From Candidatus Acidulodesulfobacterium acidiphilum (lineage in GTDB: Bacteria; SZUA-79; Acidulodesulfobacterales; Acidulodesulfobacteraceae): a stretch of 64,000 bases of DNA. Made by a program: the position numbers and the translations under genes. Numbering within the stretch: position 1 is the first letter of the stretch; the number at the start of each line of letters is the position of its first letter. The stretch spans positions 62,001 to 126,000 of the forward strand of contig SHMQ01000002.1 of assembly GCA_008534395.1 (NCBI GenBank), in the 5' to 3' direction. The notes under the pieces were generated by a model. The model made no database searches and had not been told where the DNA came from. It was given only the letters and a program-made list of their open reading frames with translations. This document shows positions 14,915 to 45,753 of this stretch, piece after piece.

Positions 14915-15634
14915 TTAACCAAAAATCCCCGCCTTACTTTTAACCATTTTCCCGTAATTTTGCAAAAAAACAACCTTGCCTTGATGTTTTTCCGCCCTGA
15001 TTTTCTTTTTCATTTCTTTTGTTAATCCGACTTTTTGATTAACGACAAGACCGCAAACATATTGCCTTTTCCAAGACGGCATTTTCTTTACTTTTTCGTA
15101 ATTTATTTCCATACCGTATTTATTTAACTGCTTAACTATAAAAGATAAGGCTTTTTCCATAAGGTCATAGTCGTTTCCCGAAAAAGTTAAATCGTCTGCA
15201 TATCTCGTATATGCTATATTAAACCCAGCTAATTTTTTGGCGGTTTTATAATCGAATTTTTTTAAATATAAATTTGCTATATAGGGGCTCGTCGGCGCTC
15301 CCTGCGGAAGTCTCTTGCCTTTTCCGTCTTTAAAATCATAAAAACAAAGACCCCATTTAAGCTTTGCTTTTATAATCGATTTAGCTTTTTCAAGCGTAAT
15401 AGAAGGAAAAAAATCTTTTATATCTATTGAATAAACGAATCTTTTATTTACGTGCGGTTTTGCGTTTGAAACTATGCTTTTGTTCGGCGTAAATCCGTGC
15501 GTATAAGGGCTGGCAGGATAGGCTTTATATAAGTATTTCAAATAATCTTCCTGCCTCTTTTTCGTTATGGGGTCTGGAGCTTCGATATGCCTCGTTCCTC
15601 CGTTTTTTTTCGGAATTTCAAAAACCCTATACAT
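14915..15634 (-). CDS. Retron-type reverse transcriptase
   Basis: 239 residues from ATG 15634, which has a perfect AAAGGAGG site; a longer frame to 15679 lacks one and overlaps the msr-msd RNA. Conserved blocks in order: IPKKNGGTRHIEAP, THGFTPNKSIVSNAKPH, YSIDIKDFFPSI (catalytic Asp), RLPQGAPTSPYIANLYL, YTRYADDLTFSG (YADD, residues 145-148), EINYEKVKKM and VCGLVVNQK, the retron equivalent of V-T-G-L-V-V-N. It is shorter than the usual ~300 residues: the N-terminal helix and the thumb end (..NYGKMVKSKAGIFG) are cut down. A structured retron RNA lies immediately upstream, as expected. Confidence 0.93.
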   Translation of the reverse strand: MYRVFEIPKKNGGTRHIEAPDPITKKRQEDYLKYLYKAYPASPYTHGFTPNKSIVSNAKPHVNKRFVYSIDIKDFFPSITLEKAKSIIKAKLKWGLCFYDFKDGKGKRLPQGAPTSPYIANLYLKKFDYKTAKKLAGFNIAYTRYADDLTFSGNDYDLMEKALSFIVKQLNKYGMEINYEKVKKMPSWKRQYVCGLVVNQKVGLTKEMKKKIRAEKHQGKVVFLQNYGKMVKSKAGIFG

Positions 15635-15650
15635 TTTCAAATCCTCCTTT

Positions 15651-15672
15651 GGCGGGATTTTAATATCCCGCC
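15651..15672 (-). promoter_or_regulatory. Hairpin just upstream of the RT ribosome site
   Basis: A perfect inverted repeat GGCGGGAT-TTTA-ATCCCGCC ends a few bases before the AAAGGAGG site of the reverse transcriptase. It separates the end of the msr-msd RNA from the coding region and could limit read-through or control translation. Confidence 0.55.
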
Positions 15673-15680
15673 GTTGCATT

Positions 15681-15884
15681 AATAGACACTAAAAGTAAGC
15701 GGGGGCGGCGAAGAGTTCGCAGAGGTAAAGCGTATTCCCCACTATCTTTTTTTTCCTGTAGCTTTACCTTGCGAATCGTCGCCGCCAGAGCGGAAACCTG
15801 ATAAAGCTAAACCTGATTAACTTGTTATGCCGAAACAGCATAACCGTTGCAAGAACTAAGTTGTTTGTCTTTTTACTGTCTATT
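15681..15884 (-). ncRNA. Retron msr-msd RNA linked to the RT
   Basis: Minus-strand RNA bounded by a1 AATAGACA (15877-15884) and a2 TGTCTATT (15681-15688). After a1 come ACAACTTAG with a candidate branching G, then hairpin GTTATGC-TGTTTC-GGCATAAC (15824-15844), whose loop TGTTTCGGCA is the same as in the well-known Ec86 msr. A long msd stem follows (15704-15786), pairing GGCGGCGA..TTCGCA..GGTAAAGC with GCTTTACC..TGCGAA..TCGCCGCC. The RT gene starts about 45 bases downstream. This is the standard retron layout. Confidence 0.9.
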
Positions 15885-15908
15885 TTGATATCTTAATAAC
15901 GAGTTATT

Positions 15909-16388: not shown

Positions 16389-16679
16389 GCGGGGGATTAA
16401 AAGGGAGAAACGCCCCGAAACCTCAACTTAAAAACGCTTCGAAGGACAAACCGGACAGAATCGTTTCGGGGCGTTTCGGAAACAGGCAAATCCCCCGCCC
16501 CGCCGTTATAAAAAATTTCAAGGGGAATTCGATAGAAAATTAAACCCGAAGGGCTTGCAGGCTTTAGCCTGTTTATATTTTCTGTCGCAATTCTCCGTCA
16601 GGCGGTTTAGGAAAATTCGATAACAGTTTTATCGTTGTCGAATTTTCCGTTAAAAACCGCCTGTGAAATTTTTGCCTAA
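16389..16679. ncRNA. Large nested structured element, copy A (candidate RNA)
   Basis: Nested stems: GCGGGGGATT (16389-16398) with AATCCCCCGC (16489-16498); inside it AACGCCCCGAAAC (16409-16421) with GTTTCGGGGCGTT (16463-16475); then GATAGAAAAT with ATTTTCTGTC; then a long hairpin 16599-16663 built from CAGGCGGTTT and GAAAATTCGATAAC arms. Unpaired blocks AAGGGAGAAA, TTAAAAACGC, AGGACA, TTTCGGAA and AAAATTTCAAGG are shared with copy B (19,541-19,870), while the stems differ by compensatory changes. Strand of transcription is unknown. A DNA-level role (origin, transfer or packaging site) is an alternative. Confidence 0.7.
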
Positions 16680-17058
16680 TAAACCGCCGACGTGGAGCTT
16701 GCGGATATGTCGGCGCACTATTTTGCCGTAGCGGTTTTCTTTTCCAAGAAAAAACAATATAAAAACGGAATAGTTTCAGGCAGCTCTCCTGACCGGACGG
16801 ACGGTTCCTGCGGGACGGCGAATCTGCGGCGCCCAGACAAACTTAAAAATGTGGAATAACGATAAAGGGTATTTCTGTAATATAAAGGATTAACGGATTA
16901 AAATTGCCGCCGAAGGCGGCCGGCGCCGCCGGAGTTTTTTTATTTTATTTTCTAAATTATTTTAAAATCGGAAAAAGTCAGGTTATCCGGTCTGTTAAAC
17001 CGTCGGTCAGGGGAGCGACCCGCTGACGCTGCCGCCCTGACTTTCTCCTTATATATTT
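16680..17058. other. Gene-free structured stretch after copy A
   Basis: No credible gene. Several GC-rich hairpins, including GCCGCCGAAGGCGGC and GGCGCCGCC near 16,905-16,931, and TCAGG-rich arms near 16,980-17,042 (GTCAGG...CCTGAC). Base composition is much richer in G+C than neighbouring genes. Ends with the leader motif before the 91-aa gene. Confidence 0.5.
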
Positions 17059-17072
17059 ATAGCGAAGTTAAA

Positions 17073-17348
17073 TCAAATTTCAATGTAAGTATTATGACCG
17101 CATAACCTTATATACTCTTTAACTTCATTTCTTCTTAAATATTCCTTGAGGGTTCTTTTTAATTCTAAATTTATAATCGCCGCTTGCTGTTCCCGTTTTG
17201 CATTTTTTATCTCTTCTTTTTTTATTGCGATAACTGCTTTTAATCTGTTGTTGTTTATTTTTTTTAATAAAATGTTTAAAAAGTTATAAAATTCTTTACC
17301 CGACTTGCTAATTGCTATTTTTAAAACTTCCTTTTCTATCGTATCCAT
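17073..17348 (-). CDS. Hypothetical helical protein (91 aa)
   Basis: Unrecognised. Basic and helical throughout (KKINNNRLKAVIAIKKEEIK; LELKRTLKEYLRRNEVKEYI), likely a coiled coil. ATG 17348 follows AAGGAGATATTTATC. First of a group of short genes lying between the two structured regions. Confidence 0.6.
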   Translation of the reverse strand: MDTIEKEVLKIAISKSGKEFYNFLNILLKKINNNRLKAVIAIKKEEIKNAKREQQAAIINLELKRTLKEYLRRNEVKEYIRLCGHNTYIEI

Positions 17349-17370
17349 GATAAATATCTCCTTTTTAAAA

Positions 17371-17457
17371 TTAAATAAAAAATAATGCTGTTAATAAAAT
17401 CATAAAGAACGTTATGCTTATGCCCTGCTCTATATATTCTTTCGTTATAGCTTTCAT
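17371..17457 (-). CDS. Membrane micropeptide (28 aa, tentative)
   Basis: A 28-codon frame (MKAITKEYIEQGISITFFMI...) ending in one hydrophobic span. It sits between the hairpin at 17,468-17,490 and the 91-aa gene, with only a weak G-rich ribosome site. A similar micropeptide frame occurs at 18,830-18,916, next to the same kind of hairpin, which is why I list it. Confidence 0.3.
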   Translation of the reverse strand: MKAITKEYIEQGISITFFMILLTALFFI

Positions 17458-17467
17458 AATTGCCCCC

Positions 17468-17490
17468 ATGGCGGGGTTGTTAGCCCCGCC
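17468..17490. repeat. Intergenic hairpin, identical to 18,526-18,546
   Basis: GGCGGGG-TTGTTA-CCCCGCC type palindrome (GGCGGGGTTGTTAGCCCCGC). The same 21 bases occur at 18,526-18,546. Both lie directly upstream of the ribosome site of a minus-strand gene. Two further hairpins in equivalent positions (CCCCTCTTTCGAGGGG near 17,920; GCCTGCCTATGCAGGC near 18,801) suggest a shared regulatory or insulating role. Confidence 0.6.
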
Positions 17491-17516
17491 CGTTATAGTT
17501 GTAAAGGTTGTTTATT

Positions 17517-17906
17517 TTATAAATCTATTTCCAAAGGGTCTTCTCCCAAAACAGGACTGCAAGATATTTTTATCTTTTTTATTTCGCCCGTGTCAATATC
17601 GAAACCCCGCTGAACGTAAAAATCTTCTTCTTCCGCTCTGTTTATGATTTCTCCGTTATTGCCGCAATATTTATCCGATTCCGCAATGGCTTTTATTAAT
17701 TTGCTTTCAATGGAAGGATACTTCTTAATTATTTTTTCTTTTGATAAAATTTCTTTAGCGTCATACAAGAACCCTTCTTTAAGGATTTTTTCAATCCTTT
17801 TTTGTGCGTCTTCGATAAATTCGACCGCTGTAGAAAATTCCTGACAGGCTAAAAAATGTATTGCGTTTTTTAAATCCGTCTGCGTGTTATAAAAAAAATA
17901 TTTCAT
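17517..17906 (-). CDS. Hypothetical protein (129 aa)
   Basis: Unrecognised. Start set at ATG 17906 because GGGGGTAATT lies directly upstream; a longer frame reads through the hairpin at 17,920. The N-terminal 90 residues are helical (FIEDAQKRIEKILKEGFLYD), the C-terminal part acidic with DIDTGEIKKIKIS. No membrane segment. Confidence 0.6.
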   Translation of the reverse strand: MKYFFYNTQTDLKNAIHFLACQEFSTAVEFIEDAQKRIEKILKEGFLYDAKEILSKEKIIKKYPSIESKLIKAIAESDKYCGNNGEIINRAEEEDFYVQRGFDIDTGEIKKIKISCSPVLGEDPLEIDL

Positions 17907-17955
17907 AATTACCCCCTGCCCCTCTTTCGAGGGGCTTTTAAAATTAATGTTAAAA

Positions 17956-18504
17956 TTAAAATGCAAAAGCGGTTTGTAAGTTTTTCGTTGCCTGCTCCGG
18001 CTGTCTTTTTTGATATTTTGCTTTTATTTTTATTTCGTCTTCTTCGATTTCGTCCTCGTCGAACATTCCGGCGCTTTCATTGTAGGTTTCCCATTTTTTC
18101 GCTGGGATTAAATCTATAAGCTCTGTTGCTTTTCCGTCCTGAGATATTACGGTATTTAAAGAAGCAGTAAAACAATTTTTCAAATCAAGGTAGCTTATTA
18201 TCGCTTTTTCAAGTTTTCTTTCTAATTTATTTTTTTTGCCGGGAATGTAAACTTTTGCGGCTCTTGTTAAGGTAAGAAACAGGCGGTATATTTCGCCTTT
18301 TAAATTTCTATTAAAGCGGTCGAAGTCTTTCTGGTCTTTAAATTCGATGTTTAAAAATTGCGGATAGTTTGTTGCCTTCTGCATTATCTTTTCAATAAGA
18401 TATGCTTTAATATGTCTATCCATAAGCAAATCTCTATTTATTACTTCTTCGTTCATTTCTTCGATTGCCATATTAACAAATGTTTCAATTATTTCGCTTT
18501 TCAT
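17956..18504 (-). CDS. Hypothetical protein (182 aa), similar in layout to 37,359-37,817
   Basis: Unrecognised helical protein ending in an acidic-basic tail (DEDEIEEDEIKIKAKYQKRQ). The central FKDQKDFDRFNRNLKGEIYRL followed later by ATELIDLIP parallels FQELDKFLKMEVHFLYKNLL and RYADIIDDD of the 152-aa protein in element 2, so the two may be distant relatives carried by both elements (inference). ATG 18504 follows GAGGAGAAGAAAA. Confidence 0.6.
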   Translation of the reverse strand: MKSEIIETFVNMAIEEMNEEVINRDLLMDRHIKAYLIEKIMQKATNYPQFLNIEFKDQKDFDRFNRNLKGEIYRLFLTLTRAAKVYIPGKKNKLERKLEKAIISYLDLKNCFTASLNTVISQDGKATELIDLIPAKKWETYNESAGMFDEDEIEEDEIKIKAKYQKRQPEQATKNLQTAFAF

Positions 18505-18558
18505 TTTTTCTTCTCCTCTATTTATGGCGGGGTTGTTAGCCCCGCCGTTATTTAAAAT

Positions 18559-18786
18559 TTATTTATTGTGAAATATCCTTTTATATAACTTTACAGTGTG
18601 TTTTATCTCGTCTGGTAGATAATAGCCCCCAATGAAAGATTTACGATTGCCATATATTAATTCAGCTTTTTTTCCTCCTTTTTTCACGTATAAATATAAG
18701 GAATGGTAGAACGTCAACGCCTCCCAATCCTTTACTTTGTATAAAATTTTTGTTGCAATTTTTAAGCTTTCCTCATTCATTCTCAT
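18559..18786 (-). CDS. Hypothetical basic protein (75 aa)
   Basis: Unrecognised, basic (YVKKGGKKAELIYGNRKSF), with a Tyr-rich N-terminal helix. ATG is preceded by AAGGAGAAAACAAA; the alternative ATG two codons downstream (MNEES) has slightly better spacing. Last conventional gene before the large non-coding region. Confidence 0.55.
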   Translation of the reverse strand: MRMNEESLKIATKILYKVKDWEALTFYHSLYLYVKKGGKKAELIYGNRKSFIGGYYLPDEIKHTVKLYKRIFHNK

Positions 18787-18829
18787 TTTGTTTTCTCCTT
18801 TGCCTGCCTATGCAGGCTTTTAAAGTTAA

Positions 18830-18916
18830 TTAAATTAAATGTGCTAACTGATAAAGGTTAAAAACTACCAAACTAAAATCTAAAGCCATTAAACTTATTC
18901 CGATTAACCTATCCAT
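18830..18916 (-). CDS. Membrane micropeptide (28 aa)
   Basis: A short frame (MDRLIGISLMALDFSLVVFN...) with a strong GGAGGTAGTGAAA ribosome site at the right distance from ATG 18916 and one hydrophobic span. The ribosome site makes it more credible than most frames of this size. It is the first frame after the 18.97-21.3 kb structured region when read on the minus strand. Confidence 0.4.
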   Translation of the reverse strand: MDRLIGISLMALDFSLVVFNLYQLAHLI

Positions 18917-18972
18917 TTTCACTACCTCCGATTTAAATTTTTTTTAACTTTTAATAATTTTTTTTTAAATTT

Positions 18973-19294
18973 TTTTTGCTTTTTTTATCGCCCTTTTACC
19001 GTCGGAGACATTTGCGGAGTAAAATTTACTTTTTGCTTTGCAAGGCGTGCCAAAATTTGAAGAGATTAGAAAACAAAATATTTTAAATTTTTCTCTGCGT
19101 CGTTAGAGATAAAGTAATGTCAATCTATTGTTTGAATGCAAGATATAAAAACGAACTGAAAAATTTAAAATATTTTTTTTCTACTCAAATAAAAAAATAT
19201 TTTGGCACGACTTGCTTAAGCAAAAAGCGTAGCGAAGCGAAGTCCGCAGGATAAATTTTACGTAGCAAATCTGGGGCGATAAAAAAAGCAAAAA
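18973..19294. ncRNA. 320-nt near-complete rod hairpin (candidate RNA or cruciform)
   Basis: Outer arms of 21 bases pair perfectly (18973-18993 with 19274-19294). Inside, in order: GTAAAATTTA (19019-19028) with TAAATTTTAC (19252-19261); CTTTTTGCTT (19029-19038) with AAGCAAAAAG (19218-19227); GCAAGGCGTGCCAAAAT (19040-19056) with ATTTTGGCACGACTTGC (19199-19215); and AAAATATTTTAAATTTTT (about 19075-19092) with its complement (19160-19177). Together this folds into one long rod. No gene overlaps it. Confidence 0.7.
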
Positions 19295-19540
19295 AATCTA
19301 AAAAATAAAAGAAAAATATTCATACCACAAATACTACAAGTGCTTCTGTTTTAGTGAGGCAAGCAAAGCGAAGCCGAACTAAAACTCTTTTAAATCCTAC
19401 AACATCGTTGTTTTTCCAAGTAAAAACTAATAAGTCTTATGCCGGTATTATGAACGCAGCGGGATCGTCGCTGTCTTAATGAAACGAAGTTTCGAAGAGA
19501 GTTCGCTTTTACTTTACTTAATAAGTAGTTATTCCTCGCT
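19295..19540. other. Gene-free linker with hairpins between rod and copy B
   Basis: No credible gene. One clear hairpin is GTTTTAGT..GGC/GCC..ACTAAAAC at 19,348-19,385. A block ACAACATCGTTGTTT at 19,399-19,413 recurs at 20,579-20,593. Confidence 0.5.
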
Positions 19541-19870
19541 TGCGGGTTCGGGACATAAGGGAGAAAACGGGCGCAAAATCACAATTAAAAACGCCCCAGA
19601 GGACAGCCCCATACAAAAAATTATTTTGCGTCCGTTTTCGGAATAGGTTTGTCCCGAACCGTCGCCGTCCGCAAAAAAATTTCAAGGAGAATTCGATAGG
19701 TTTGGTCACAGGACGGACGTTATGGGATAACTTATCCAAGTTAAAAAACTATCCGCCGAAGCCTGTGAGCAAACCTGTCGCAATTCTCCGTCAGGCGGTT
19801 TAGGAAAATTCGATAACAGTTTTATCGTTGTCGAATTTTCCGTTAAAAACCGACTGTAAAATTTTTGCCT
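19541..19870. ncRNA. Large nested structured element, copy B (candidate RNA)
   Basis: Same layout as copy A but with different stem sequences: GGTTCGGGACA (19545-19555) with TGTCCCGAACC (19650-19660); inside, AAAACGGGCGCAAAAT (19564-19579) with ATTTTGCGTCCGTTTT (19623-19638); then GATAGGTTT..TCACAGG with CCTGTGA..AAACCTGTC; then the near-identical 63-base hairpin at 19792-19854. Loop and junction blocks (AAGGGAGAAA, TTAAAAACGC, AGGACA, TTTCGGAA, AAATTTCAAGG, CGCAATTCTCCGTCAGG) are conserved with copy A. Covariation of this extent argues for selection on structure. Confidence 0.7.
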
Positions 19871-21330
19871 AAGGGACGGGCGCAAGGAGCGAGCGACGCA
19901 GCGCCCCACTAAATCGATTTAAGAACGTTAATCTTAAAAGCCTGTCCAAAGAAAAAGCTGGATTAACTTAAATTAAGTCCGAAAAATGCGCTCAGGTTAA
20001 GTTACCGATACTCTGCTATACGGCACGATATAAAAAAGAATCGGGCGCCCGTTGCGAAGCAATGGGCTAAAACTATAAAGATGCCGTATAGCAGATAAGA
20101 TAATATAAATACGTATAGCCGGATAAGCATACGGTATGCGTATAGATAGATAAACAGTCAGGTATTAGCAGTGAAGCACGTGCAGGGTTCAAGAAAGACA
20201 GGCGGGGTATTCCACTAAAGCATTATAAAGACGAAAAGACTTTTAAAATAAAAAAAGCTCAAACGAAGACGTCCACCCCGCCGTCTTTCTTGTGTAAGAA
20301 AAATAAGCGGCGCAAGCCGTTACAATTTTGAAACGAAAAGGCGGTTAAGAATAAAAGTTAAAAGAAACTATCAAAGCGGGAATCGGAACGACGAAGATGT
20401 TCCGAGAGAGCCCCAAGGCGAACGAGGAACGAAGGGAAAGGAAAAAAATGGAAAGGAAAAGAAGGGAAAGGAAAAAGGGAAATAAAGGAAAAAGGAAACG
20501 AAAAAAAATTATCCGTTTATTCGGAGACGAAAAAGGAAAATTATTTATACCGTTCACTACGAATTAGATTTCAAAAACACAACATCGTTGTTTGGTTCGC
20601 AAGTGGAAACGAAAGCAAAAAAACGATGTAAGAAATTCTTCTACGAAAAGCTGAATAGGAGTGTAAGGCTTTCGCTGTGGAGTGGAACGGCAGGATTGCC
20701 TTGTTGATAAAAAAATAAAAGTGCTAAATTGAATTACGTAAAAAAAGACGATAAAATTCAAAAACAAAAAGGCAATCCGAAGTGAAACGGAACAGCATCA
20801 GTTTTTATTTTGCCCAAGACGAAGTCTTGCTTTAATGGCAAAATAAAAACTCTCAACTACTCCCCCTTGCGAATAGCGAGGGGGTGAGGGGGGTGTCTCA
20901 CGTGTGGCTTCAGTGCGAGATATTGACTTTCCACTGTTGCAACTATAAAAACGATAAAAATAAAATAAGATAAATGCAAAAAATAAAAACGAAAGTCAAT
21001 ATCCGCACGGTGTAGCATTCGCGGCGATTTCTTTCAACTTAAATCGCCGCGAATGCGTGCAAAGAGGTTCGTAGCCGTATCGGCTTTTAAAATAAAACAC
21101 GCTTTTTTGTTTTATTTTAAAAGCCGAAGGTTTCACCGCTTCACTTTAAGGTGAAACCGGTAGGCACGAACCTCGTATATTTTTTTTTATTTTTTATGTT
21201 TTTGCTGCGGCTCTCTTAGATGGTTTTACTCAACTTGAGTAAAAAATATTGCAGAACACAACAAACTACAACTTAAATCTTCTGCAATATTTTTTATGAG
21301 CCGCAGCGATAAAAAATAAAAAAAAATATA
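19871..21330. other. Run of strong hairpins, no genes (candidate continuation of structured RNA)
   Basis: Perfect or near-perfect stems follow one another: 20013-20025 with 20082-20094; 20190-20209 with 20275-20292; 20920-20931 with 20991-21002; 21015-21030 with 21041-21056 (16 bp). A three-way junction has outer arms 21064-21072/21166-21174 and inner hairpins 21081-21098/21109-21126 (18 bp) and 21129-21137/21150-21158. A two-level hairpin pairs 21204-21213 with 21298-21307 and 21241-21256 with 21280-21295. Frames of 60-70 codons here are low-complexity and lack ribosome sites. Could be a giant RNA, an origin, or a transfer site. Confidence 0.6.
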
Positions 21331-21868
21331 CAACACACTATACAACTTTGTCGGTGTTTTTCAAATTCAAAATTACTTAATAAAATTGAATACTTAACTA
21401 TGGCAAATTACCGTATATATTTGAGTGGGGGGTAACTACGGGGGGTAGGTGCATTTTTTTATGTTTTTTTATGGTTAAAAATCGACCGTATTTTGCATTT
21501 AAAGGCGACGATTTTATCTCTGAATAATTTCTTATTAGATAAAAAAATACGACCTTAAAAACAGTTTTAAGAGCGTTATTTTTTTCATAAAAATGAATTG
21601 AAATTTTGTCATTTTAAAAACAAAGATTTGCAATTTTAAACTTAAAAATTAAAAAAAATTTAACGATAATCATTCTGCTTTTTTATAAAAAAAAATAAAA
21701 AACAATCTAAAATTTAAGTTAATTCCGTCAAAAAGTTTTTAACTTTTAGATGATTTTTGAATTAAAAAACGGCTTTCAAATTTTAATTTTAAGGCTTGTT
21801 TTTTTCGTTCAGGACGTTTACTATCAGGTTAAAAATAGGCGGGATTAAAATCGATTTTACGCAAAAAA
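21331..21868. other. AT-rich gene-free stretch
   Basis: Nothing convincing seen: long A/T runs, one G-run (TGGGGGGTAACTACGGGGGG near 21,426) and no frame with a ribosome site. Less structured than the preceding 2.4 kb. Confidence 0.5.
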
Positions 21869-21916: not shown

Positions 21917-22747
21917 TTAATTCAGTCCAGTCCATAGTTTCAAAAAAGTTTCGGGATTAGAAAAAAAATCGTCTAAAACTACGACTAAATTTTTATCTGC
22001 CGCATCCGAAAAAATCATTTTTTTGTCTAAAACCGAATCGTATTTAAACGACTCGCCGGCGTAATTCATAAATATTTTTATTAATCTTTCTTTATCTTTT
22101 TGACTTGGCACAAGCCATACCGTCTTATCGTATTCCTTAAGATATTGCGACCAAAAAAGACGCTTACCGTAATGCTTGTGGTCTGGTTTTATGTTAAGTT
22201 CTATTTCTATTAATAAGTTTAAATTTCGAATAAGAATATCGGGACGGATTTTATATTTATTCTTTTTGTCTATGTAAATTCTTTCGTCGTTATAGTCGTC
22301 CAAAACCGATTCCGTTTCATAATTTAGGAGTTCGTTTTTGTTACCGTTTTCATCTATCCTAAATCTTTCTACTATGGCGGCTACCCTTCGGATGTATAAA
22401 TTATGTTTAAGATGTTCGCCCTGAACGCCTACTGTTTTTATTTTTTCTTTGCCGAATAATTTACAACCTTGAGTATCAAGACTAAATGCCGTCAGTAGTT
22501 CAGGTTTTGCATTCCAATCAGGGGAATTTATCGTGATTCTTGTTTTACGAATATAATTGTAAGAGATTAGTTTTTTAATTCTGTCCCAAAAAGCTCTGTC
22601 ACTTTTTTTATTCAATAAAATTTTGGCGGTTACGTCGTCAATATATTTATTGTCTGCTATAAATCGCAATAAAAGTTTATCGTTATTTTGTAATTCTATT
22701 CTTTTTTTGCTTAATGAATCTTTAATTTTTGAAAAATCTATCGTCAT
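21917..22747 (-). CDS. Replication-relaxation / MobC-like plasmid protein
   Basis: 276 residues. The N-terminal half is a winged-helix pattern (LLLRFIADNKYIDDVTAKIL ... IKKLISYNYIRKTRI). The second half has KIRPDILIRNLNLLIEIELN followed by GKRLFWSQYL, matching the D-x-L..hhEhE core of the replication-relaxation family found on plasmids and conjugative elements. In these elements it helps open or process the plasmid origin. No good Shine-Dalgarno precedes ATG 22747. Only about 110 bases separate it from the right end of the IscB element, which lies between it and the coupling-protein genes, so the insertion may have altered its original expression. Confidence 0.65.
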   Translation of the reverse strand: MTIDFSKIKDSLSKKRIELQNNDKLLLRFIADNKYIDDVTAKILLNKKSDRAFWDRIKKLISYNYIRKTRITINSPDWNAKPELLTAFSLDTQGCKLFGKEKIKTVGVQGEHLKHNLYIRRVAAIVERFRIDENGNKNELLNYETESVLDDYNDERIYIDKKNKYKIRPDILIRNLNLLIEIELNIKPDHKHYGKRLFWSQYLKEYDKTVWLVPSQKDKERLIKIFMNYAGESFKYDSVLDKKMIFSDAADKNLVVVLDDFFSNPETFLKLWTGLN

Positions 22748-22946: not shown

Positions 22947-24236
22947 TTACGCCAGTATTCTTTCCGTTATCCAATTGTTATTCCTCCTTATATGCTCTAT
23001 TTTATCTGCGGCAACCTGCTTATAGGATTTGCCGTCCGCTTTTATATAGTCACCGTTAATATCCTGAACGTAGCAGGCGTTTCCGGTAAATCCCGAAATA
23101 TATCCCTTTTTACCGCATACCTTAACTTTATCCCATAATGCAAACTTCCTGCCGTTTACGGTAATTTCTTTGGTATTTTTAGCGTTCCTGACCGAATGGA
23201 CGTTAGGCTCTTTTCTGCCTTTCCTCGCCGTAGCTTCGTGCAGGGAACGTTTCTTTTTTCTTGCCTGCTTAATAACAGTTATAAGAATAACGTTATCTTT
23301 TACTTCCGTTATGCCTGTAATAGCTATGGCGTCGTTATAATGCTCTTTTTCTAATTCAAGACTGCGCCTGTTTATAGAAGTAAGATAGCCGTAGGTAAAT
23401 GCAACCTTATCTCCATAAATAGCCTTAAATTCGTCCATAAGTTTATATCTTACGGCGTTATACATTGCGGCGGATATAAACTGCTTTGCTTTTTTGAGTT
23501 TTGATAAAGCTCCTGTCTTATGTCCTTTTATATGACAGCTTTTATGTAATAACGCAAGATTATCGGGTTTATTAGTCCCGCCGTCCGCTCTCGGTATTAT
23601 ATGGTGAATATGCCAGCCGTCATTTTCTTTGTAACCTTTATGACAAAGCTGGCATTTGCCGCTTTCTCTTACGAGTAAAAACTGCTTGGCGTTTTCATAG
23701 CCGTATAAAGAGCCCTGCTGATATTCAACGCCGGATATGTCGGGATTAATAAGTTTTTGCATATCGAATTTATTAATTTCTATTTTTAACGTATAATCGG
23801 GATAATAGCTTACGAGTTCGTTAATTTTATTAACTATATGCCTTGCTTTTTGTTCTATGCTCGACGGTAACCGTCCTGCTTTTTTATTGCAGCGGTTTAA
23901 AAATCTTGCCTTGCGGTAACGGGTATTTCTGTTTCTTCTACTACGTCTCAATACTTTTCTTGCCGCAAGTAAAGATTTAACGTCGGTTCTTAACCTGATT
24001 TCGCCTTTTTCTACTATTTTACCGTTATCCAACGCTACTGCGTATCCGGTAGTATCGCCGGGGTCAACGCCTACGGTTGCGTGCTGGACAATTTCGGGAG
24101 TATCGAACAATAACCGGATAGTAAACGGCTTTTTCGATATTATTACCGCCTTGCCTTCTTTTAGCATACGCCTTACCTTGCCGTATCTTTTGGTCGGCAT
24201 AAGCTGTTTTCCGTTCTTGCTAATTACTTTTACCAT
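22947..24236 (-). CDS. iscB: IscB RNA-guided HNH/RuvC nuclease
   Basis: 429 residues, typical IscB length. Domains in order: PLMP (NGKQLMPTKRYGKVRRMLKE), RuvC-I VGVDPGDTTGYA (Asp near 58), Arg-rich bridge helix RRSRRNRNTRYRKARFLNR, RuvC-II KIEINKFD (Glu), HNH domain CQLCHKGY..WHIHHIIPRADGG..DNLALLHKSCH with both CxxC-type zinc ligands and catalytic His, and RuvC-III EKEHYNDAIAI (His/Asp). All expected catalytic residues are present, so the enzyme looks intact. IscB is the ancestor-type relative of Cas9 and works with the omega RNA encoded directly upstream. ATG 24236 follows GAGGTAAGAA. Confidence 0.97.
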   Translation of the reverse strand: MVKVISKNGKQLMPTKRYGKVRRMLKEGKAVIISKKPFTIRLLFDTPEIVQHATVGVDPGDTTGYAVALDNGKIVEKGEIRLRTDVKSLLAARKVLRRSRRNRNTRYRKARFLNRCNKKAGRLPSSIEQKARHIVNKINELVSYYPDYTLKIEINKFDMQKLINPDISGVEYQQGSLYGYENAKQFLLVRESGKCQLCHKGYKENDGWHIHHIIPRADGGTNKPDNLALLHKSCHIKGHKTGALSKLKKAKQFISAAMYNAVRYKLMDEFKAIYGDKVAFTYGYLTSINRRSLELEKEHYNDAIAITGITEVKDNVILITVIKQARKKKRSLHEATARKGRKEPNVHSVRNAKNTKEITVNGRKFALWDKVKVCGKKGYISGFTGNACYVQDINGDYIKADGKSYKQVAADKIEHIRRNNNWITERILA

Positions 24237-24237
24237 T

Positions 24238-24495
24238 TCTTACCTCTAAAAAGTTACTGTAAGTCTTCCTTTTGGAAGTTATTGCCCATCGGCAATGTTA
24301 TAAGCGCTTTGTTAAATGAGGTTGACTAAGAGTTTCCTCTTTGTTTACAGAGCCTCGATAGAGCTTGACGCTTGGGCATTACGTCAGGGTATCATCACGC
24401 AAATAACGTAGTATCGGTTATGTCTCCGATACTTAGCCTAGACAACCAATTACTCTTGAACCTTACGGTTCAAACCCCGTCCGAAAGGGCGGGGT
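24238..24495 (-). ncRNA. Omega RNA (HEARO) of IscB
   Basis: About 250 bases between the element left end and iscB hold a series of hairpins on the minus strand: CCCCGCCC/GGACGGGG, GAACC-GTAA-GGTTC, AGTATCGG/CCGATACT, and smaller ones such as GCCGATGGGC and CTTCC-AAAA-GGAAG next to the start codon. HEARO/omega RNAs occupy exactly this place and size. The guide would come from the sequence flanking the left end, here reading GAGGAGTAATGTCAAT on the minus strand. Exact ends cannot be set without RNA data. Confidence 0.85.
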
Positions 24496-24513
24496 GATTG
24501 ACATTACTCCTCC

Positions 24514-24897
24514 TTATTCACCTAAACGTTTTTTGTCGTCTAAAACGTCGAGCGAAAACTTGTTTTTTTTATCGCTTTTTATGCAGTAATCTTTTATATT
24601 TTTTTCGTCCTCTTTTAAAAAAAATCTAATAAGAAGAATGGCAAGCGTAGATAGAAAAAGAAATAAAACTATATAGAAATAAATTCCGAGCAGAGCGCTT
24701 GAATGTTTAGTCGGAGATACATAAATATAGCCGTAATATCCGTATTTGACAAACGTAAAAACTTTTGAAAACATATCCCCGAACACAAACGTAAAATAGC
24801 GTCCGTAGAACAATTTAAGAAACAAAAAGGGAAGGAAAAAGCATAAAAAAATTATAAAAATAATCGACAGAGCTTTGACTACGTGGTCTTTATACAT
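24514..24897 (-). CDS. Two-span membrane protein paired with coupling ATPase
   Basis: 127 residues with a hydrophobic N-terminal segment (about 7-33, ALSIIFIIFLCFFLPFLFLK) and a second (about 70-93, IYFYIVLFLFLSTLAILLIR), then a charged cytoplasmic tail. It overlaps the end of the coupling ATPase gene by eight bases. The same arrangement (two-span protein next to a soluble coupling ATPase) occurs in element 2, suggesting that it supplies the membrane anchor of a split VirD4/TraD protein (inference). Confidence 0.6.
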   Translation of the reverse strand: MYKDHVVKALSIIFIIFLCFFLPFLFLKLFYGRYFTFVFGDMFSKVFTFVKYGYYGYIYVSPTKHSSALLGIYFYIVLFLFLSTLAILLIRFFLKEDEKNIKDYCIKSDKKNKFSLDVLDDKKRLGE

Positions 24898-26107
24898 TCC
24901 TTAGCGCTTCCTCCATATTGATATGTTGAAACTTCATAATACACTTCGTTAAATCCTGCCTTATCAATATTTTTCCTATAGCGTTTCCCGGTTTCAAAGC
25001 CGATATCGCAGACGGCTGGACGAGCCAGTCTTTTACCTGCCCTGACGACACCATTGTAGTTCCGTGCGTCTCCATCGTGCGGGATTTAACCTCTTCGATT
25101 TTATAGCCGAAGAGTCTCGAAATATCTTCGTTCCTTAATCCGTCCTGCGCGAAGATAATTTTATTTCTTGCGTTGTTTAGTATGATATCTAAAAGCGTCG
25201 GATCAAATCTATCGGCATCGGAAAATGACTGAGTAAGCAAAGCTATTTCGATTCCGAATCCTCTTATTTCTTTTATAATTTTACTGAAATAAGAAAACAT
25301 TAAATCCGAAAATTCATCTATGGCAAACGTCATAAGAAAATCTCTCTGACGCGGTTTTACAAGTCTGATATACTCTATCGTCATTCTTCCGAAAGCGTTT
25401 TCAGTTTCGATATTTCTTAGCGAAAACCAGTTGTCGGCTTTAATATCTATATTTTCCGCATCTTCATAATTTAAATTCTTAGCAAGAGCGAACGGCTGAA
25501 GTTTATTTAAAAAATTAGATATCAAAGAGGCGTAATCTGAGTTATTGACTATACCCGATAAAATTAGTTCTTCAGGCTTCGATAAATAGCTTTTATAAGT
25601 ATCGTACAGCCTTTTCATCTCGTCCCTAAATAACGATAAAAACAATTTTTCAAAGGTAATATTTTCGATATAATCTATCGCAAAAGACAGAGCCTGAACC
25701 GCAAAATTTTGATAAAACGTTTCTTCCGTAGATATAACTTTAGGATAGAGCGAATTCTTTAACATTTCGAGTATTTCATCTTTTTTAAGACCTTTAAGCA
25801 GATTTATTTTAGATTTCATATCGTAAAAATTAGCTTCCGGCTTATAAATCCTTGCGACCATTTTTGCATTTTCATCGCCCTTGCCGTCTATTACCGTGAT
25901 ATTTTTTTTATTAATCCAAAGCGGCAATAAAACGCTTTCGGTTTTTCCGGAGCCGGTTATACCGAAAGCTATCATATGGGCATCGGGAAAAGGGATTTTT
26001 ATAACAGGACTGTCATCTTCTTTGGTCATATCCTTGATTAAGGCAAAAACCGGCAACGATTTTTTTTGCATATTATCAGACTGCTTTTTGTTATTTAGAA
26101 TATCCAA
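24890..26107 (-). CDS. VirD4/TraD-like type IV coupling ATPase
   Basis: 405 residues. Walker A GITGSGKTESVLLP near residue 50, Walker B FAIDEFSDLMF, and the ALLTQSFSDADRFD block (equivalent to the T-Q motif of TraG/VirD4 ATPases). No membrane segment of its own. It probably starts with TTG 26107, ten bases after GGAGG and two bases past the stop of the preceding gene; ATG 26071 has no ribosome site. It would energise DNA transfer by linking a relaxase-bound strand to a secretion channel. No relaxase is seen in the visible part of element 1. Confidence 0.8.
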   Translation of the reverse strand: MDILNNKKQSDNMQKKSLPVFALIKDMTKEDDSPVIKIPFPDAHMIAFGITGSGKTESVLLPLWINKKNITVIDGKGDENAKMVARIYKPEANFYDMKSKINLLKGLKKDEILEMLKNSLYPKVISTEETFYQNFAVQALSFAIDYIENITFEKLFLSLFRDEMKRLYDTYKSYLSKPEELILSGIVNNSDYASLISNFLNKLQPFALAKNLNYEDAENIDIKADNWFSLRNIETENAFGRMTIEYIRLVKPRQRDFLMTFAIDEFSDLMFSYFSKIIKEIRGFGIEIALLTQSFSDADRFDPTLLDIILNNARNKIIFAQDGLRNEDISRLFGYKIEEVKSRTMETHGTTMVSSGQVKDWLVQPSAISALKPGNAIGKILIRQDLTKCIMKFQHINMEEALRNV

Positions 26108-40106: not shown

Positions 40107-40304
40107 ATGGCAAAAAAAATAGACACGATTAAGACGAAAAAATGTGCTGAAAGTTATCTCGATTTTTTACAAAATAAAAACTTAGAAAGCTATTTTTTGT
40201 ATCAAAAAGATTACAACAAATTGAACGCAGATGAGAAATTTTTAGTAATTTTAGATATCACGGTTTTGAAAGAAATAATCAAAGACGAATCAAAAGGTGA
40301 ATAA
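40107..40304 (+). CDS. Small protein before the relaxase (65 aa)
   Basis: Unrecognised, helical and charged (YLDFLQNKNLESYFLYQKDY). Starts with AAAAGGTGAACATAAA inside the 279-bp repeat. The stop codon is two bases before the relaxase ATG, so it is co-translated with it. Perhaps a relaxosome accessory factor (inference from position). Confidence 0.6.
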   Translation: MAKKIDTIKTKKCAESYLDFLQNKNLESYFLYQKDYNKLNADEKFLVILDITVLKEIIKDESKGE

Positions 40305-40305
40305 A

Positions 40306-43300
40306 ATGTTGAGCGCAGGAAAACAATATCAAAACTACGAATATTACGCTAAAGATCCTATTTTTAGTGTCGAAGAAGGACATTTTATAGGAGGTCTTGC
40401 GGCTGAACTTGGATTCAAAGAAATGAACAAGGAAACATTCGAAAAATTACAAGCCGGACAAAACGCAAAAGGTGAACAAATCATCGAAATGGCGCAAGGG
40501 AAACACGACCCAGGAAAAGATTTTACATTTTCTTTAGACAAAGATTTGTCAATTTTTATGTTATCATCTGAACAAAATAAAGTCGCAATGCAAAACGCTC
40601 TTAATGCAGCAGTTGACAAAATAATTGATACGGCCATAAGCGAAGGTTTTTTATCGTGGAGGGAACATAAAGGAGACCAAATAATAGACCATAAAATAAC
40701 CGATAAAAATCAAATTGCGGCTTATGGTTTTACTCAATCATTATCAAGAGACAACGATCCAAACGTTCACGCTCACATCGCTTTTTTTAATCAAACTAAA
40801 ACAGAAAATGGAGATTTTAGGGCTATATCTTTTGACGGTCTTTTCACAAAAGGAGCGCGCGAATATTTAGATAATGTCGGTAAAAATACATTTTTAGATA
40901 CGCTTCAAAAAGGAATTAATAAAGATATTTCAAGCGAACTTGAAACGAACAAAAAAACAGGAGCAATTAACTTGAAAAGCTATAGCCAGGAAGACAGAGA
41001 TTATTTTTCTAAAAGAAGTCAAGAAATAGAAAAAGCGAAAATAGAATTACAAAAAGAATATCCAAATGCTAGTAAGGGCGAGATATCACAAATGGCAAAT
41101 AAATTGACCAGAAATGATAAAGATTTTGATTTTAAAAAAGAAGATTTAGACAAAGAATTAGAAAAAGTCAAGGGAAAAACTAACGCTATAGAAGCTAATA
41201 TCGAGCTATCAATGTCTTACAATAAAGAGAATAACTTAAGCTTTTATAAAACAAAACTTGTCTCAAGTTTGGATAATTATATGAAGGCTTTAACTCAAAA
41301 AGAAATCTATAGCAGCAAAAATTCTTTATTCACGGAAGTATTAAAAGAAAACCGTTATGCTACAATCGAAAATGTCAAACAAGTTTATGACGAATATCTT
41401 AAAAACGGTAAAATTGAAGAACGAGATTTAACTACAAAAAACGGTCAAACTATCAAAACTTTTGCTTTAACCGAAGATTTAAAAGCAGCAGAAGAAATTT
41501 ACAAAATGGCGGCAAACGGAAGAGGTAATTCTTTTACCGTAGGAACTAAAGAAGAAAATGATAAAATAATTGCACAATTCGAAAAAGAAAAAGGTTTTAT
41601 TTTATCTCCGCAACAAAGAGAAGCAGTTGAAAAATTTATGAACCAAAAAGACCAGTTTAATTTTACGCAAGGATTCGCCGGAGCAGGAAAAACTACAGCT
41701 TTTGAATTAACAAAAAGATTAGCTGAAAATTCTAATTTTTCTATTGTAGGTTTCGCAAATAACGGCAGCCAAGCTCAAAATTTAATGAATGAGAGCGGTA
41801 TTAAAAGTCAGACTATGGCTAGTTTTATAGCCTCTGAAACAAAAAACAGACAAGGAGAAAAAGCCCTTGTAATAATTGACGAAGCGTCAATGACTGGTTT
41901 AAAAACTTACTCAGAATTTTACAAAAAATTAAATGATACTTTCGGAGCTAATAATTGGAAAACTTCTTTAACTGGCGACACAAATCAACTACAATCAATT
42001 GGCAAGGGAAGAGTTTTTAACGATAATATAGAAAATTCTGAAAATAAAACGGTTATTTCTGATATAAGAAGACAAAAAAACGAAACTTTAAAAAGTCATA
42101 TATACGAATATTATGAACAATTTGAAAAAAACAAAATAGACGGCCAAGAAATGGTAAAAAGTTTCAAAGATTATATAAAAGTAGTAAAAAAAGAAGATGA
42201 TATTTTAAAAGAAGCGGTTAAAACTTATATGTCTTTTAATAAAAAAGAAAGTACCGTAATTTTGGTTAGAACTAACGAAGAAAAAAATATATTAAACGCC
42301 GAAATTAGAAAAGAACTTTCGCAACAAGGAATTCTAAAAGGTAAAGATAATTTTGTCGGAACTTTAACTAAAAAAAATATTGAAGAAACCAATAAATTAA
42401 AGTCTGAAAGCTACGAAAAAGGCGATATTATAAGTTTCAGGAAAAGTGAATATAAAGAAATAAGCCGCACAGACGATAAAAACAATCTTATTTATTATAA
42501 ATCTTTTGTGTATAAAAATGTTGATAAAAATGTAAAAATCGACGAAGAAAAAAATAAAGTTTTTATTAAAGATAAAAAAAGCGGTTTAATTCAATCTTAT
42601 GATTTAAGAAATTATGATAAAGAATCAAAAAACGTTTCTTATTTTATCGGTAAAAATGAATCAAGACTAAATTTATCCGAAAATAGCGAAAAAACTTTAA
42701 AAATTCAAAAATATGAAGAAAACAAAATATCTCTTAAAAAAAACGATAAAGTCATATTTACAGAAAATATCAATTTAATAAATAACACAGAAAAAACTGT
42801 TAAGTATATTAAAGCTAGCGACCAAAGCTTGTTAACACAAAAAATTCTAAAAGCCGATAAAAATTTTAACAGAATTTTAGACGAAAAAAAGTTTAATAAA
42901 GAAATTGCTAAAGCGGAAAAATTAGGCGCAATAATTAACAGAGTCGAGCTTAAAAACAAAGACGGCAAATTAATAGGCGAATCGGCGAAAATAGTATATG
43001 AAGAGAAAAAAGAATTAAAAAACGGTCAATTTGCTACTTTTGTAGAAAAAAAAGGGAATATTTATAATTTTAAAGTCGGCGAAAATATTTTATCTTTAGA
43101 TAAAAACAATAAAAGTAACGCCGCAGCTTTACAAAAAATAGAACATGCTTATGCCGTCACGACCGATAAGGCTCAAGGGTTAGCCTTTCTAAATGTCGTT
43201 TCCGTCGGAGCTGTAAAAAAGACGGCACAAAAAATTTTGGTTGATATTACAAGAGCTATAAAAAACCTTGTGCTTATCGTTTCTGAAAAGTCAATGGAAA

Positions 43301-43512
43301 AAAAAGAATTAGAAAATGGTAAACTCGGGAAAAGCGATTTAGAAAAGGCTTTTGAAAATAAACAAGAAAAAACGACTCTTAGAGAAGAAACTAAAAAGGA
43401 AATATTCGGAAATTCAAAAAATATAGATAAAACCGAAGAAAAAAAAGAAAAATTTGAAAATTCAAAAACTAAAGGTGAAGAAAATGAAAACGTTAGGGTT
43501 TATGGCAGATGA
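40306..43512 (+). CDS. traA: MobF relaxase-helicase (TraA/TrwC type)
   Basis: 1068 residues from ATG 40306 (AAAAGGTGAATAAA upstream). N-terminal TrwC relaxase: tyrosines Y8-Y14 (YQNYEYY), DFTFSLDKDLSI, and HUH-type metal site NVHAHIAFFN at 153-162. Central RecD-like helicase: GFAGAGKTTA near 456, LVIIDEASMTG, TGDTNQLQSIGKGRVF, SDIRRQ and AYAVTTDKAQGLAF. It nicks oriT, stays bound to the 5' end and unwinds the strand for transfer. The C-terminal 80 residues are a Lys/Glu-rich disordered tail. Confidence 0.95.
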   Translation: MLSAGKQYQNYEYYAKDPIFSVEEGHFIGGLAAELGFKEMNKETFEKLQAGQNAKGEQIIEMAQGKHDPGKDFTFSLDKDLSIFMLSSEQNKVAMQNALNAAVDKIIDTAISEGFLSWREHKGDQIIDHKITDKNQIAAYGFTQSLSRDNDPNVHAHIAFFNQTKTENGDFRAISFDGLFTKGAREYLDNVGKNTFLDTLQKGINKDISSELETNKKTGAINLKSYSQEDRDYFSKRSQEIEKAKIELQKEYPNASKGEISQMANKLTRNDKDFDFKKEDLDKELEKVKGKTNAIEANIELSMSYNKENNLSFYKTKLVSSLDNYMKALTQKEIYSSKNSLFTEVLKENRYATIENVKQVYDEYLKNGKIEERDLTTKNGQTIKTFALTEDLKAAEEIYKMAANGRGNSFTVGTKEENDKIIAQFEKEKGFILSPQQREAVEKFMNQKDQFNFTQGFAGAGKTTAFELTKRLAENSNFSIVGFANNGSQAQNLMNESGIKSQTMASFIASETKNRQGEKALVIIDEASMTGLKTYSEFYKKLNDTFGANNWKTSLTGDTNQLQSIGKGRVFNDNIENSENKTVISDIRRQKNETLKSHIYEYYEQFEKNKIDGQEMVKSFKDYIKVVKKEDDILKEAVKTYMSFNKKESTVILVRTNEEKNILNAEIRKELSQQGILKGKDNFVGTLTKKNIEETNKLKSESYEKGDIISFRKSEYKEISRTDDKNNLIYYKSFVYKNVDKNVKIDEEKNKVFIKDKKSGLIQSYDLRNYDKESKNVSYFIGKNESRLNLSENSEKTLKIQKYEENKISLKKNDKVIFTENINLINNTEKTVKYIKASDQSLLTQKILKADKNFNRILDEKKFNKEIAKAEKLGAIINRVELKNKDGKLIGESAKIVYEEKKELKNGQFATFVEKKGNIYNFKVGENILSLDKNNKSNAAALQKIEHAYAVTTDKAQGLAFLNVVSVGAVKKTAQKILVDITRAIKNLVLIVSEKSMEKKELENGKLGKSDLEKAFENKQEKTTLREETKKEIFGNSKNIDKTEEKKEKFENSKTKGEENENVRVYGR

Positions 43513-44418: not shown

Positions 44419-45753
44419 ATGAAATCTAGAATAGAAATCAAAACGGTTGACGGTATTATGAGCCTGCCGCCAAACACAGAAACTAAACATACTTTAGCGG
44501 TCGGAGCGACAGGCGCAGGAAAAACGCAATTAATCGAACAATACGTCGATAATTTAATTCAAAGAGGCGATAAAGGCGTTATACTTGACCTAAAGGGAGA
44601 ATTTACCGCTAAATTTTATCGGCCTGGCGTTGATTTTATATTAAATCCTTTAGACCAGCGAAGCGTTAAATGGACAATTTCAAATGACATTAATTTTAAC
44701 TTATTAAAGGCAGACGCTGAAGTTATAAGCAATTCTTTAATAAACGATTTGTCGGCTCAATCCGAAAATGAGAAATTCTTTTTACAATCGGCAAAAAATG
44801 TTTTAAGAGCGCTTATTTATTTTACTTATGCGTCTGGTTTTAAATTAAATAGCGATTTAAACAAAAAGATTTTTAGCGGATATGAAGATATTAAGTCGAT
44901 GTTAGAAGCTGTTAAAGCTACAGATTCTTTGTCTGCTTTAGGCGATAAACCGAGTCCTCAATCTGACGGCGTTTTAGCGACAGCTCACGTTTGGAGCAGA
45001 GCAATAGATTTATTAAGTAATATGGACGGTGATTTTTCGATAGAAAATTGGATAAAAAACGGCGAAGGTCTTATTTTTTTAAACGCCTCACAAAAATATC
45101 AAAACATCGTAAGTCCGGTTGCCAGGTTTTTTATTGACTTTTTATTAAATATACTGTTAGGATTAGGACAAGATTTAGAAAGAAGAATTTTTATAATACT
45201 CGACGAATTTCAAAATTTATCAGCTATTCCGTCTTTGTTAACCATTTTGACTTTGGGTAGGTCTGCCGGAGCAAGCGTAATTGCCGGAACGCAAGATTTC
45301 GGTTTAATAGACCAAAAATATTCACAAAACGCTAAAACGACTTTACTTAACGCGATGAATACTTTATTTTTATTAAGAATTATCGAACCTAACACTGCGG
45401 AATATTTGTCAAAAGCTATGGGCGAAAGTGAGGTTGAGGATTATACGACCTCGTCAAGTTTATCAATGGATGAAAATTGGGACAGAATAAACATTCAATC
45501 GAATCGGAGAAATGAAAGACTTGTTATGCCTATTGATTTGTCAAGTTTAGGAGATTTAGAGTTTTATTTTAAAAATAAAAAATATATGGCGAAATCAAAA
45601 CTTAAATTAACTATAAGGAAAAACAAACAACCTGCGTTTTTACCTATTTCTCAAGAAATAAGCGTAAATAAAGAGCAAGAAACAATACCGGCCGACTCAT
45701 CTGAACAAAAAACAGAACAAAAAACACAAGAAAATGAAAAAACTTTATTTTAA
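44419..45753 (+). CDS. traD: TraD/VirD4-type coupling ATPase (soluble part)
   Basis: 444 residues, no membrane span. Walker A VGATGAGKTQLIEQY near 28-42, DLKGEFTAKFYRPGVDFILN and PLDQRSVKWTI (F-type TraD signature), Walker B IFIILDEFQNLSAIP, and GTQDFGLIDQKYS. Couples the relaxase-DNA complex to a secretion channel. Starts with AGGGTGAATT. The C-terminal tail is Glu/Gln-rich. No VirB4 or channel genes follow, so transfer probably needs a helper. Confidence 0.93.
   Translation: MKSRIEIKTVDGIMSLPPNTETKHTLAVGATGAGKTQLIEQYVDNLIQRGDKGVILDLKGEFTAKFYRPGVDFILNPLDQRSVKWTISNDINFNLLKADAEVISNSLINDLSAQSENEKFFLQSAKNVLRALIYFTYASGFKLNSDLNKKIFSGYEDIKSMLEAVKATDSLSALGDKPSPQSDGVLATAHVWSRAIDLLSNMDGDFSIENWIKNGEGLIFLNASQKYQNIVSPVARFFIDFLLNILLGLGQDLERRIFIILDEFQNLSAIPSLLTILTLGRSAGASVIAGTQDFGLIDQKYSQNAKTTLLNAMNTLFLLRIIEPNTAEYLSKAMGESEVEDYTTSSSLSMDENWDRINIQSNRRNERLVMPIDLSSLGDLEFYFKNKKYMAKSKLKLTIRKNKQPAFLPISQEISVNKEQETIPADSSEQKTEQKTQENEKTLF

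Follow-up and report, generated by a model that had tools for sequence, protein, structure and literature searches.

What kind of element are the two large folded sequences, copy A and copy B, that lie between genes in a 64,000-nucleotide (nt) stretch of the genome of Candidatus Acidulodesulfobacterium acidiphilum (GenBank assembly GCA_008534395.1, contig SHMQ01000002.1, positions 62,001 to 126,000, forward strand; hereafter the window)? The original prediction took them for a large non-coding RNA (ncRNA) of conjugative elements. We conclude that A and B belong to an unlisted, newly recognised family of structured elements that fold as a single strand. The core of this family is a closing helix, P1, which encloses hairpin hp1 and a second arm composed of helix P3, hairpin hp2 and, 3' of hp2, an unpaired GTTAA. 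About 37 copies were detected. With covariance models, 17 of 30 genomes of the phylum proved to carry the element, at 1-5 copies each, and 212 genomes from outside the phylum gave no hit. As to function, we hold weakly (at a probability of roughly 0.35) that the element is a single-strand-DNA (ssDNA) signal of mobile elements that works like the sso, ssi and Frpo sites discussed below. The family, with its strong covariation, comes from a little-studied phylum of acid environments.

Architecture of copies A and B

The two copies present their stems and unpaired blocks in the same order, as had been claimed: hairpin alpha (an outer and an inner stem), a CCG(C/T)CG spacer, P1, hp1, and P3 enclosing hp2, with the unpaired GTTAA in place in both. 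By folding, copy A as a whole extends over 16389-16673 (+ strand). Its hairpin alpha (16389-16498) has an outer stem at 16389-16398/16489-16498 and an inner stem at 16407-16421/16463-16477, and is followed by the spacer and a three-way-junction core (16511-16673), in which P1 (16511-16520/16664-16673) encloses hp1 (16522-16596) and the second arm, with P3 at 16599-16608/16654-16663, hp2 at 16610-16648 and GTTAA at 16649-16653. Copy B (19545-19866, + strand) consists of alpha (19545-19660; outer stem 19545-19555/19650-19660) and a core (19674-19866) with P1 at about 19674-19684/19855-19866, hp1 at 19686-19789, hp2 at 19803-19841 and GTTAA at 19842-19846. Two covariance models were used, R1 from seven copies and the wider R2 from 26; R1 matches copy A at 16502-16687 (cmsearch, 67.8 bits), and R2 matches copy B at G000:C2:81664-81881. 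Both copies fold far better as RNA than shuffled sequences do (z = -6.9 for A and -8.6 for B; 0 of 100 shuffles as good). Folded as DNA, copy A reaches z = -7.2 on the + strand and -7.6 on the - strand, and the RNA folds of its two strands (-117.9 and -118.6 kcal/mol) reveal no strand bias in this copy taken alone.

Pairing is kept between A and B where sequence has changed. The outer stem of alpha is formed by GCGGGGGATT/AATCCCCCGC in A and by GGTTCGGGACA/TGTCCCGAACC in B, and the inner stem and most of hp1 differ in sequence with equally good pairing, which bears out the compensatory differences that had been described across at least three helices. A block from the end of hp1 through hp2 is 98% identical over 98 nt. 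Both copies occupy intergenic gaps within a long series of - strand genes, and no annotated gene crosses either of them; a mechanical 87-codon open reading frame (TTG start, 19,540-19,803) runs across B.

The earlier failure to match a known RNA was reproduced, in that no Rfam 15 family was matched at its gathering threshold by A, B or 20 related loci. A weak tmRNA-like match at 20944-21126 is below threshold and outside both copies. The HEARO RNA (RF02033, the IscB guide RNA) is likewise a structured element of mobile DNA in the same window, but it is a separate element at 24278-24502 (- strand) with its own Rfam hit, which A and B do not match. A retron ncRNA was also rejected, because the retron-type reverse transcriptase (RT; 14915-15679) is accompanied by an msr/msd-like block of its own, located at about 15690-15900 on the - strand.

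Covariation, folded strand and exchange of arms

A DNA search recovered more copies, here denoted by letters, in genomes of the same genus and the same family. Two further copies in the same genome, C and D, occupy corresponding places in a second conjugative region (contig C5). Across the family, hairpin alpha and a CCGCCGNCGTCGC spacer often come before the core. Plasmid and phage records contained no DNA similarity to the element; four pattern scans of IMG/VR returned one stretch, which failed the covariance model, and a scan of IMG/VR for the RT returned no relative. Exact matches to the hp2 loop in Marinomonas, Treponema, Bacteroidales, Cohaesibacter, Pseudovibrio and Betaproteobacteria were dismissed as chance, as none passes the model.

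Covariation in homologues had been set beforehand as a check on the prediction, and it proved to be far above controls. In an alignment of 26 copies (A6), whose fitting to the model favours the structure, 96.2% of helix cells pair and compensated change on both sides is seen at 42 of the 53 pairs; the covariation score is 0.534 compared to 0.154 ± 0.010 in shuffled alignments and ≤0.14 when partners were slid. An independent MAFFT alignment of seven copies (A4) already contains 14 doubly changed pairs. The near-identical copies J and O differ by three compensated changes and no broken ones, and copies U and X, at one orthologous site, by two compensated and two broken. The motif CGTTAA is present in 27 of 32 copies compared to 2 in shuffled sequences. 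Because relatives keep the three-armed shape while almost all of the stem sequence is swapped, we conclude that this shape is under selection.

The alignments also assign the fold to one strand. Two T·G (U·G) wobbles are conserved, one in 22 of 24 copies and the other in 20 of 25, and the helix cells of the model-fitted alignment hold 109 G-T against 14 A-C combinations, or 67 against 14 when the two conserved columns are removed. The opposite strand of a copy scores about 22 bits compared to about 160 bits. The kept wobbles and the excess of G·T over A·C lead us to conclude that the folded form is the single strand in the + orientation across the family.

Arms frequently change as entire blocks, as in hp2 of copies I and Q. 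Moreover, the same hairpin can be hp1 in one copy and hp2 in another (positions 26-56 of I equal 81-111 of V at 31 of 31 nt), and hairpins are shared between these positions in L/W and R/W as well. Much of the covariation stems from this exchange of whole arms and not from separate point changes, so there are fewer independent events than the counts suggest. A small hairpin, GCAGGCTTTAGCCTG (window 16545-16572 in A), recurs in copies A, K, S, L, M, N, T and X, in different arms and in the 3' strand of P1, and resembles a module inserted in larger stems.

Genomic context and possible function

Judged by its genes, the window is a conjugative element. It encodes a TrwC relaxase (40297-43512, +), a TrwB coupling protein (44419-45753, +), a second coupling-type protein (24890-26107, -), ParB/ParA, SSB, RecT, UvrD, an Umu-type polymerase and peptidase, a RepB-type primase and a tyrosine integrase that adjoins tRNA-Thr. 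Copy A is upstream of the operon on the - strand that contains the retron-type RT, and copy B is upstream of a small-gene operon (17073-18504, -), which lies between A and B and is transcribed away from B; copies are also found upstream of a - strand operon that holds ParA. Elsewhere, a Replicase gene (PF03090) adjoins copies Q and g and lies 3.5 kb from U, RepB_primase adjoins L and R, ParA adjoins P and g, a TrwC relaxase lies beyond Q, a coupling protein-ParB-ParA group is beside I and a TraG/VirB4-type ATPase is beside O. Five of 25 plasmid-type replication genes (RepB_primase, PF16793; Replicase, PF03090) are within 4 kb of a copy where 0.24 was expected, in a post hoc test whose gene set was picked after the neighbours had been seen. 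RepB_primase occurs in 10 of 17 genomes with copies compared to 1 of 13 without (Fisher p = 0.007; p = 0.04 among near-complete genomes). The two copies have the same orientation in each of four mobile regions (the window, the second conjugative region, G005:C126 and G027:C40; the second K copy is partial). Where ParA-containing and par/rep-like operons adjoin copies, their direction is the reverse of that of the folded strand.

In the neighbour survey, no one protein family is common to all copies, and other copies adjoin MFS, GGDEF, epimerase/glycosyltransferase or AhpC genes, so the element is not confined to conjugative elements, despite its enrichment in conjugative and plasmid contexts. 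The proposal of a large ncRNA of conjugative elements therefore survives in part: the element is structured, covarying and over-represented in conjugative and plasmid regions, but its restriction to conjugative elements is contradicted by the copies beside ordinary chromosomal genes and a Cas12a locus. That it is an RNA is likewise not supported, as no conserved promoter or terminator was found and a folded single DNA strand fits equally well.

The strand specificity, the shared orientation in multi-copy elements, the opposite direction of adjacent par/rep-like operons and the link to replication genes fit our favoured reading, a cis-acting signal used while plasmid or conjugative-element DNA is single-stranded, during transfer or rolling-circle replication. 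In this reading the folded strand would draw in machinery for priming or transcription, leading to complementary-strand synthesis or to early expression of adjacent operons, and chromosomal copies would be relics or secondary insertions. There are precedents. The integrative and conjugative element (ICE) ICEBs1 contains a functional, orientation-specific single-strand origin (sso) made of stem-loops, sso1 (PMC4595007). The element resembles this origin and those of rolling-circle plasmids in being non-coding, strand-specific stem-loop DNA within an ICE, and by analogy it may, like them, act on ssDNA in one orientation. Frpo promoters lie upstream of leading-region genes and take their folded form on the strand that is transferred (PMC11541004), and the element shares with Frpo and ssi sites its large imperfect hairpins, its occurrence in more than one copy per element and its location upstream of operons templated by the folded strand.

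Several results weigh against the ssDNA signal. No conserved sigma-70-like sequence was found on either strand in core or flank, the best - strand sigma-70 score was 8.69 compared to 8.47 in shuffled sequences, and the stems, unlike those of Frpo and ssi sites, share no conserved -35/-10 site. The CS-6 motif of ssoA-type origins is TAGCGT/A in a loop. It was not enriched (3 of 32 copies compared to 2.1 shuffled), and the element further differs from sso in being a larger three-way junction that is also scattered in chromosomes; sequence similarity to sso was neither seen nor sought. DnaA-box-like 9-mers are enriched (19 of 32 copies with ≤1 mismatch compared to 7.4) but absent from A-D. No known DNA origin was matched, and an origin of transfer (oriT) was not located in the window, with nothing convincing in 35.1-40.4 kb and a MobC-like gene near 21.9 kb scoring below cut-off. 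Orientation relative to the TrwC relaxase is inconstant (the same in the window, opposite in Q), several copies are in ordinary chromosomal places, and no clear excess of decay is seen in copies that lie outside mobile elements (p = 0.18). A narrower form, in which conjugative elements and plasmids use a phylum-specific class of folded signal to prime or transcribe their incoming strand, with interchangeable arms on a fixed three-way-junction scaffold and with neither sequence nor motif shared with Frpo, ssi or sso sites, seems to us somewhat unlikely. If the element does act on ssDNA, it would reveal by what means the ICEs of this lineage convert incoming DNA or express it, and R2 would serve as a search model for such sites where motif searches fail.

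A possible though doubtful alternative is a non-autonomous mobile intergenic repeat like miniature inverted-repeat transposable elements (MITEs) or repetitive extragenic palindromes (REPs), moved in trans by an enzyme that recognises the fold, with the ICE copies being retained insertions. REPs and MITEs are folded intergenic repeats, and REPs lie mostly between co-directional and convergent genes (PMC3733652); copies of the element are similarly intergenic, with flanking genes that are often convergent or co-directional and hardly ever divergent. The short, non-coding, strongly folded units vary in presence between genomes, as do MITEs (bcr1, NEMIS, RUP) and REP/BIME repeats, low-copy subfamilies differ among genomes, and CGTC- and GTAG-like tetranucleotides adjoin the helices as in REP/BIME. 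Chromosomally scattered copies are units of roughly 220-310 bp with sharp ends that are shared in unrelated locations: copies I, J, Q, V and Z have a common unit from -84 to +223 (about 310 bp, 82-89% identity), L, M and N one of about 210-226 bp, and a, b and d one of about 265 bp (91-95% identity). Copy V is present in genome G015 at a locus with a tRNA, a short gene and a Cas12a-CRISPR system; at the corresponding locus, G019 and G005 lack it.

Mobility of this kind fails, however, to explain the compensated changes in J/O and U/X, the conserved wobbles, GTTAA and the maintained scaffold. No convincing terminal inverted repeats or target duplications were found at unit ends, and for copy a no clean empty site was found, its right flank alone matching G004. 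Copies are also inherited in place, as in the orthologous pairs U/X and W/f. REPs are palindromes of 20-40 bp, high in copy and tied to a RAYT gene, whereas the core of the element is about 150-280 nt, multi-branched with exchangeable arms, and present in 1-5 copies per genome, where MITEs and REPs reach tens to hundreds. Mobilisation by RAYT/Y1 transposases was rejected, as no copy was detected at 12 Y1_Tnp loci and Y1_Tnp does not co-occur significantly with the element, being present in 13 of the 17 genomes that carry copies and in 6 of the 13 that lack them. Should it nevertheless prove to be a mobile repeat, the element would clearly exemplify a fold that persists while its hairpins are exchanged.

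We consider it unlikely that the element is the gene of a trans-acting structured ncRNA carried on mobile elements, as originally suggested. The covariation is typical of functional RNA, U-G pairs are conserved, and the a/b/d unit carries about 105 nt of conserved upstream sequence, with P1 and a T-run forming its end. Yet copies L, M, N, T, U, W, X and Y lack this T-run, no terminator is conserved, and the scan for upstream promoters was negative (mean best score 8.0 compared to 7.96 shuffled). G-T pairs are few outside the conserved columns, and neighbouring genes offer no consistent protein partner. Finally, it is very improbable that these are functionless quasi-palindromes kept complementary by template switching and hairpin exchange, which would account for the arms that change as blocks, the hairpins that shift between hp1 and hp2 and the outright loss of hp2 in copy f, since such correction would erase the two T-G wobbles and the asymmetric GTTAA bulge, and the architecture is maintained phylum-wide.

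Because its likeness to sso, Frpo and REP/MITE is partial, with at least one defining feature of each not seen here, we place the element under none of these and only in the broad class of structured signals and repeats of mobile DNA.

Other elements near the copies

At the locus of copy V (L080, 9913-14124), Cas12a (TIGR04330, 1152 bits) and a CRISPR array lie beside tRNA-Arg, with the element between the array and the short gene; array repeats resembling those of L080 are present at the matching locus of G019 and G005. The retron downstream of copy A (14915-15900, -) comprises the 254-residue RT and a probable msr/msd upstream of it, which is flanked by ATAGACA.../...GTCTAT repeats and has a long GC-rich stem. 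The nearest PADLOC models are RT_XIII, RT_III-A and RT_X, two adjoining proteins (286 and 250 residues) have no convincing family match, and a 77%-identical copy of the retron is found in L009. The IscB locus (22947-24502, -; NCBIfam guided_IscB, 293 bits; HEARO/omega RNA, 110 bits) sits in the conjugative element between genes for a coupling-type and a MobC-like protein. A hairpin-rich non-coding block at 20668-21364 is 91-94% identical to the ICEs of G005 and G027, where neighbouring sequence is about 75-79% identical; it adjoins the weakly MobC-like gene (21917-22747) and is a candidate oriT or recently acquired unit. Immediately left of copy B, a nested imperfect palindrome of about 350 nt (18958-19309) is conserved in the second ICE of the genome (L009).

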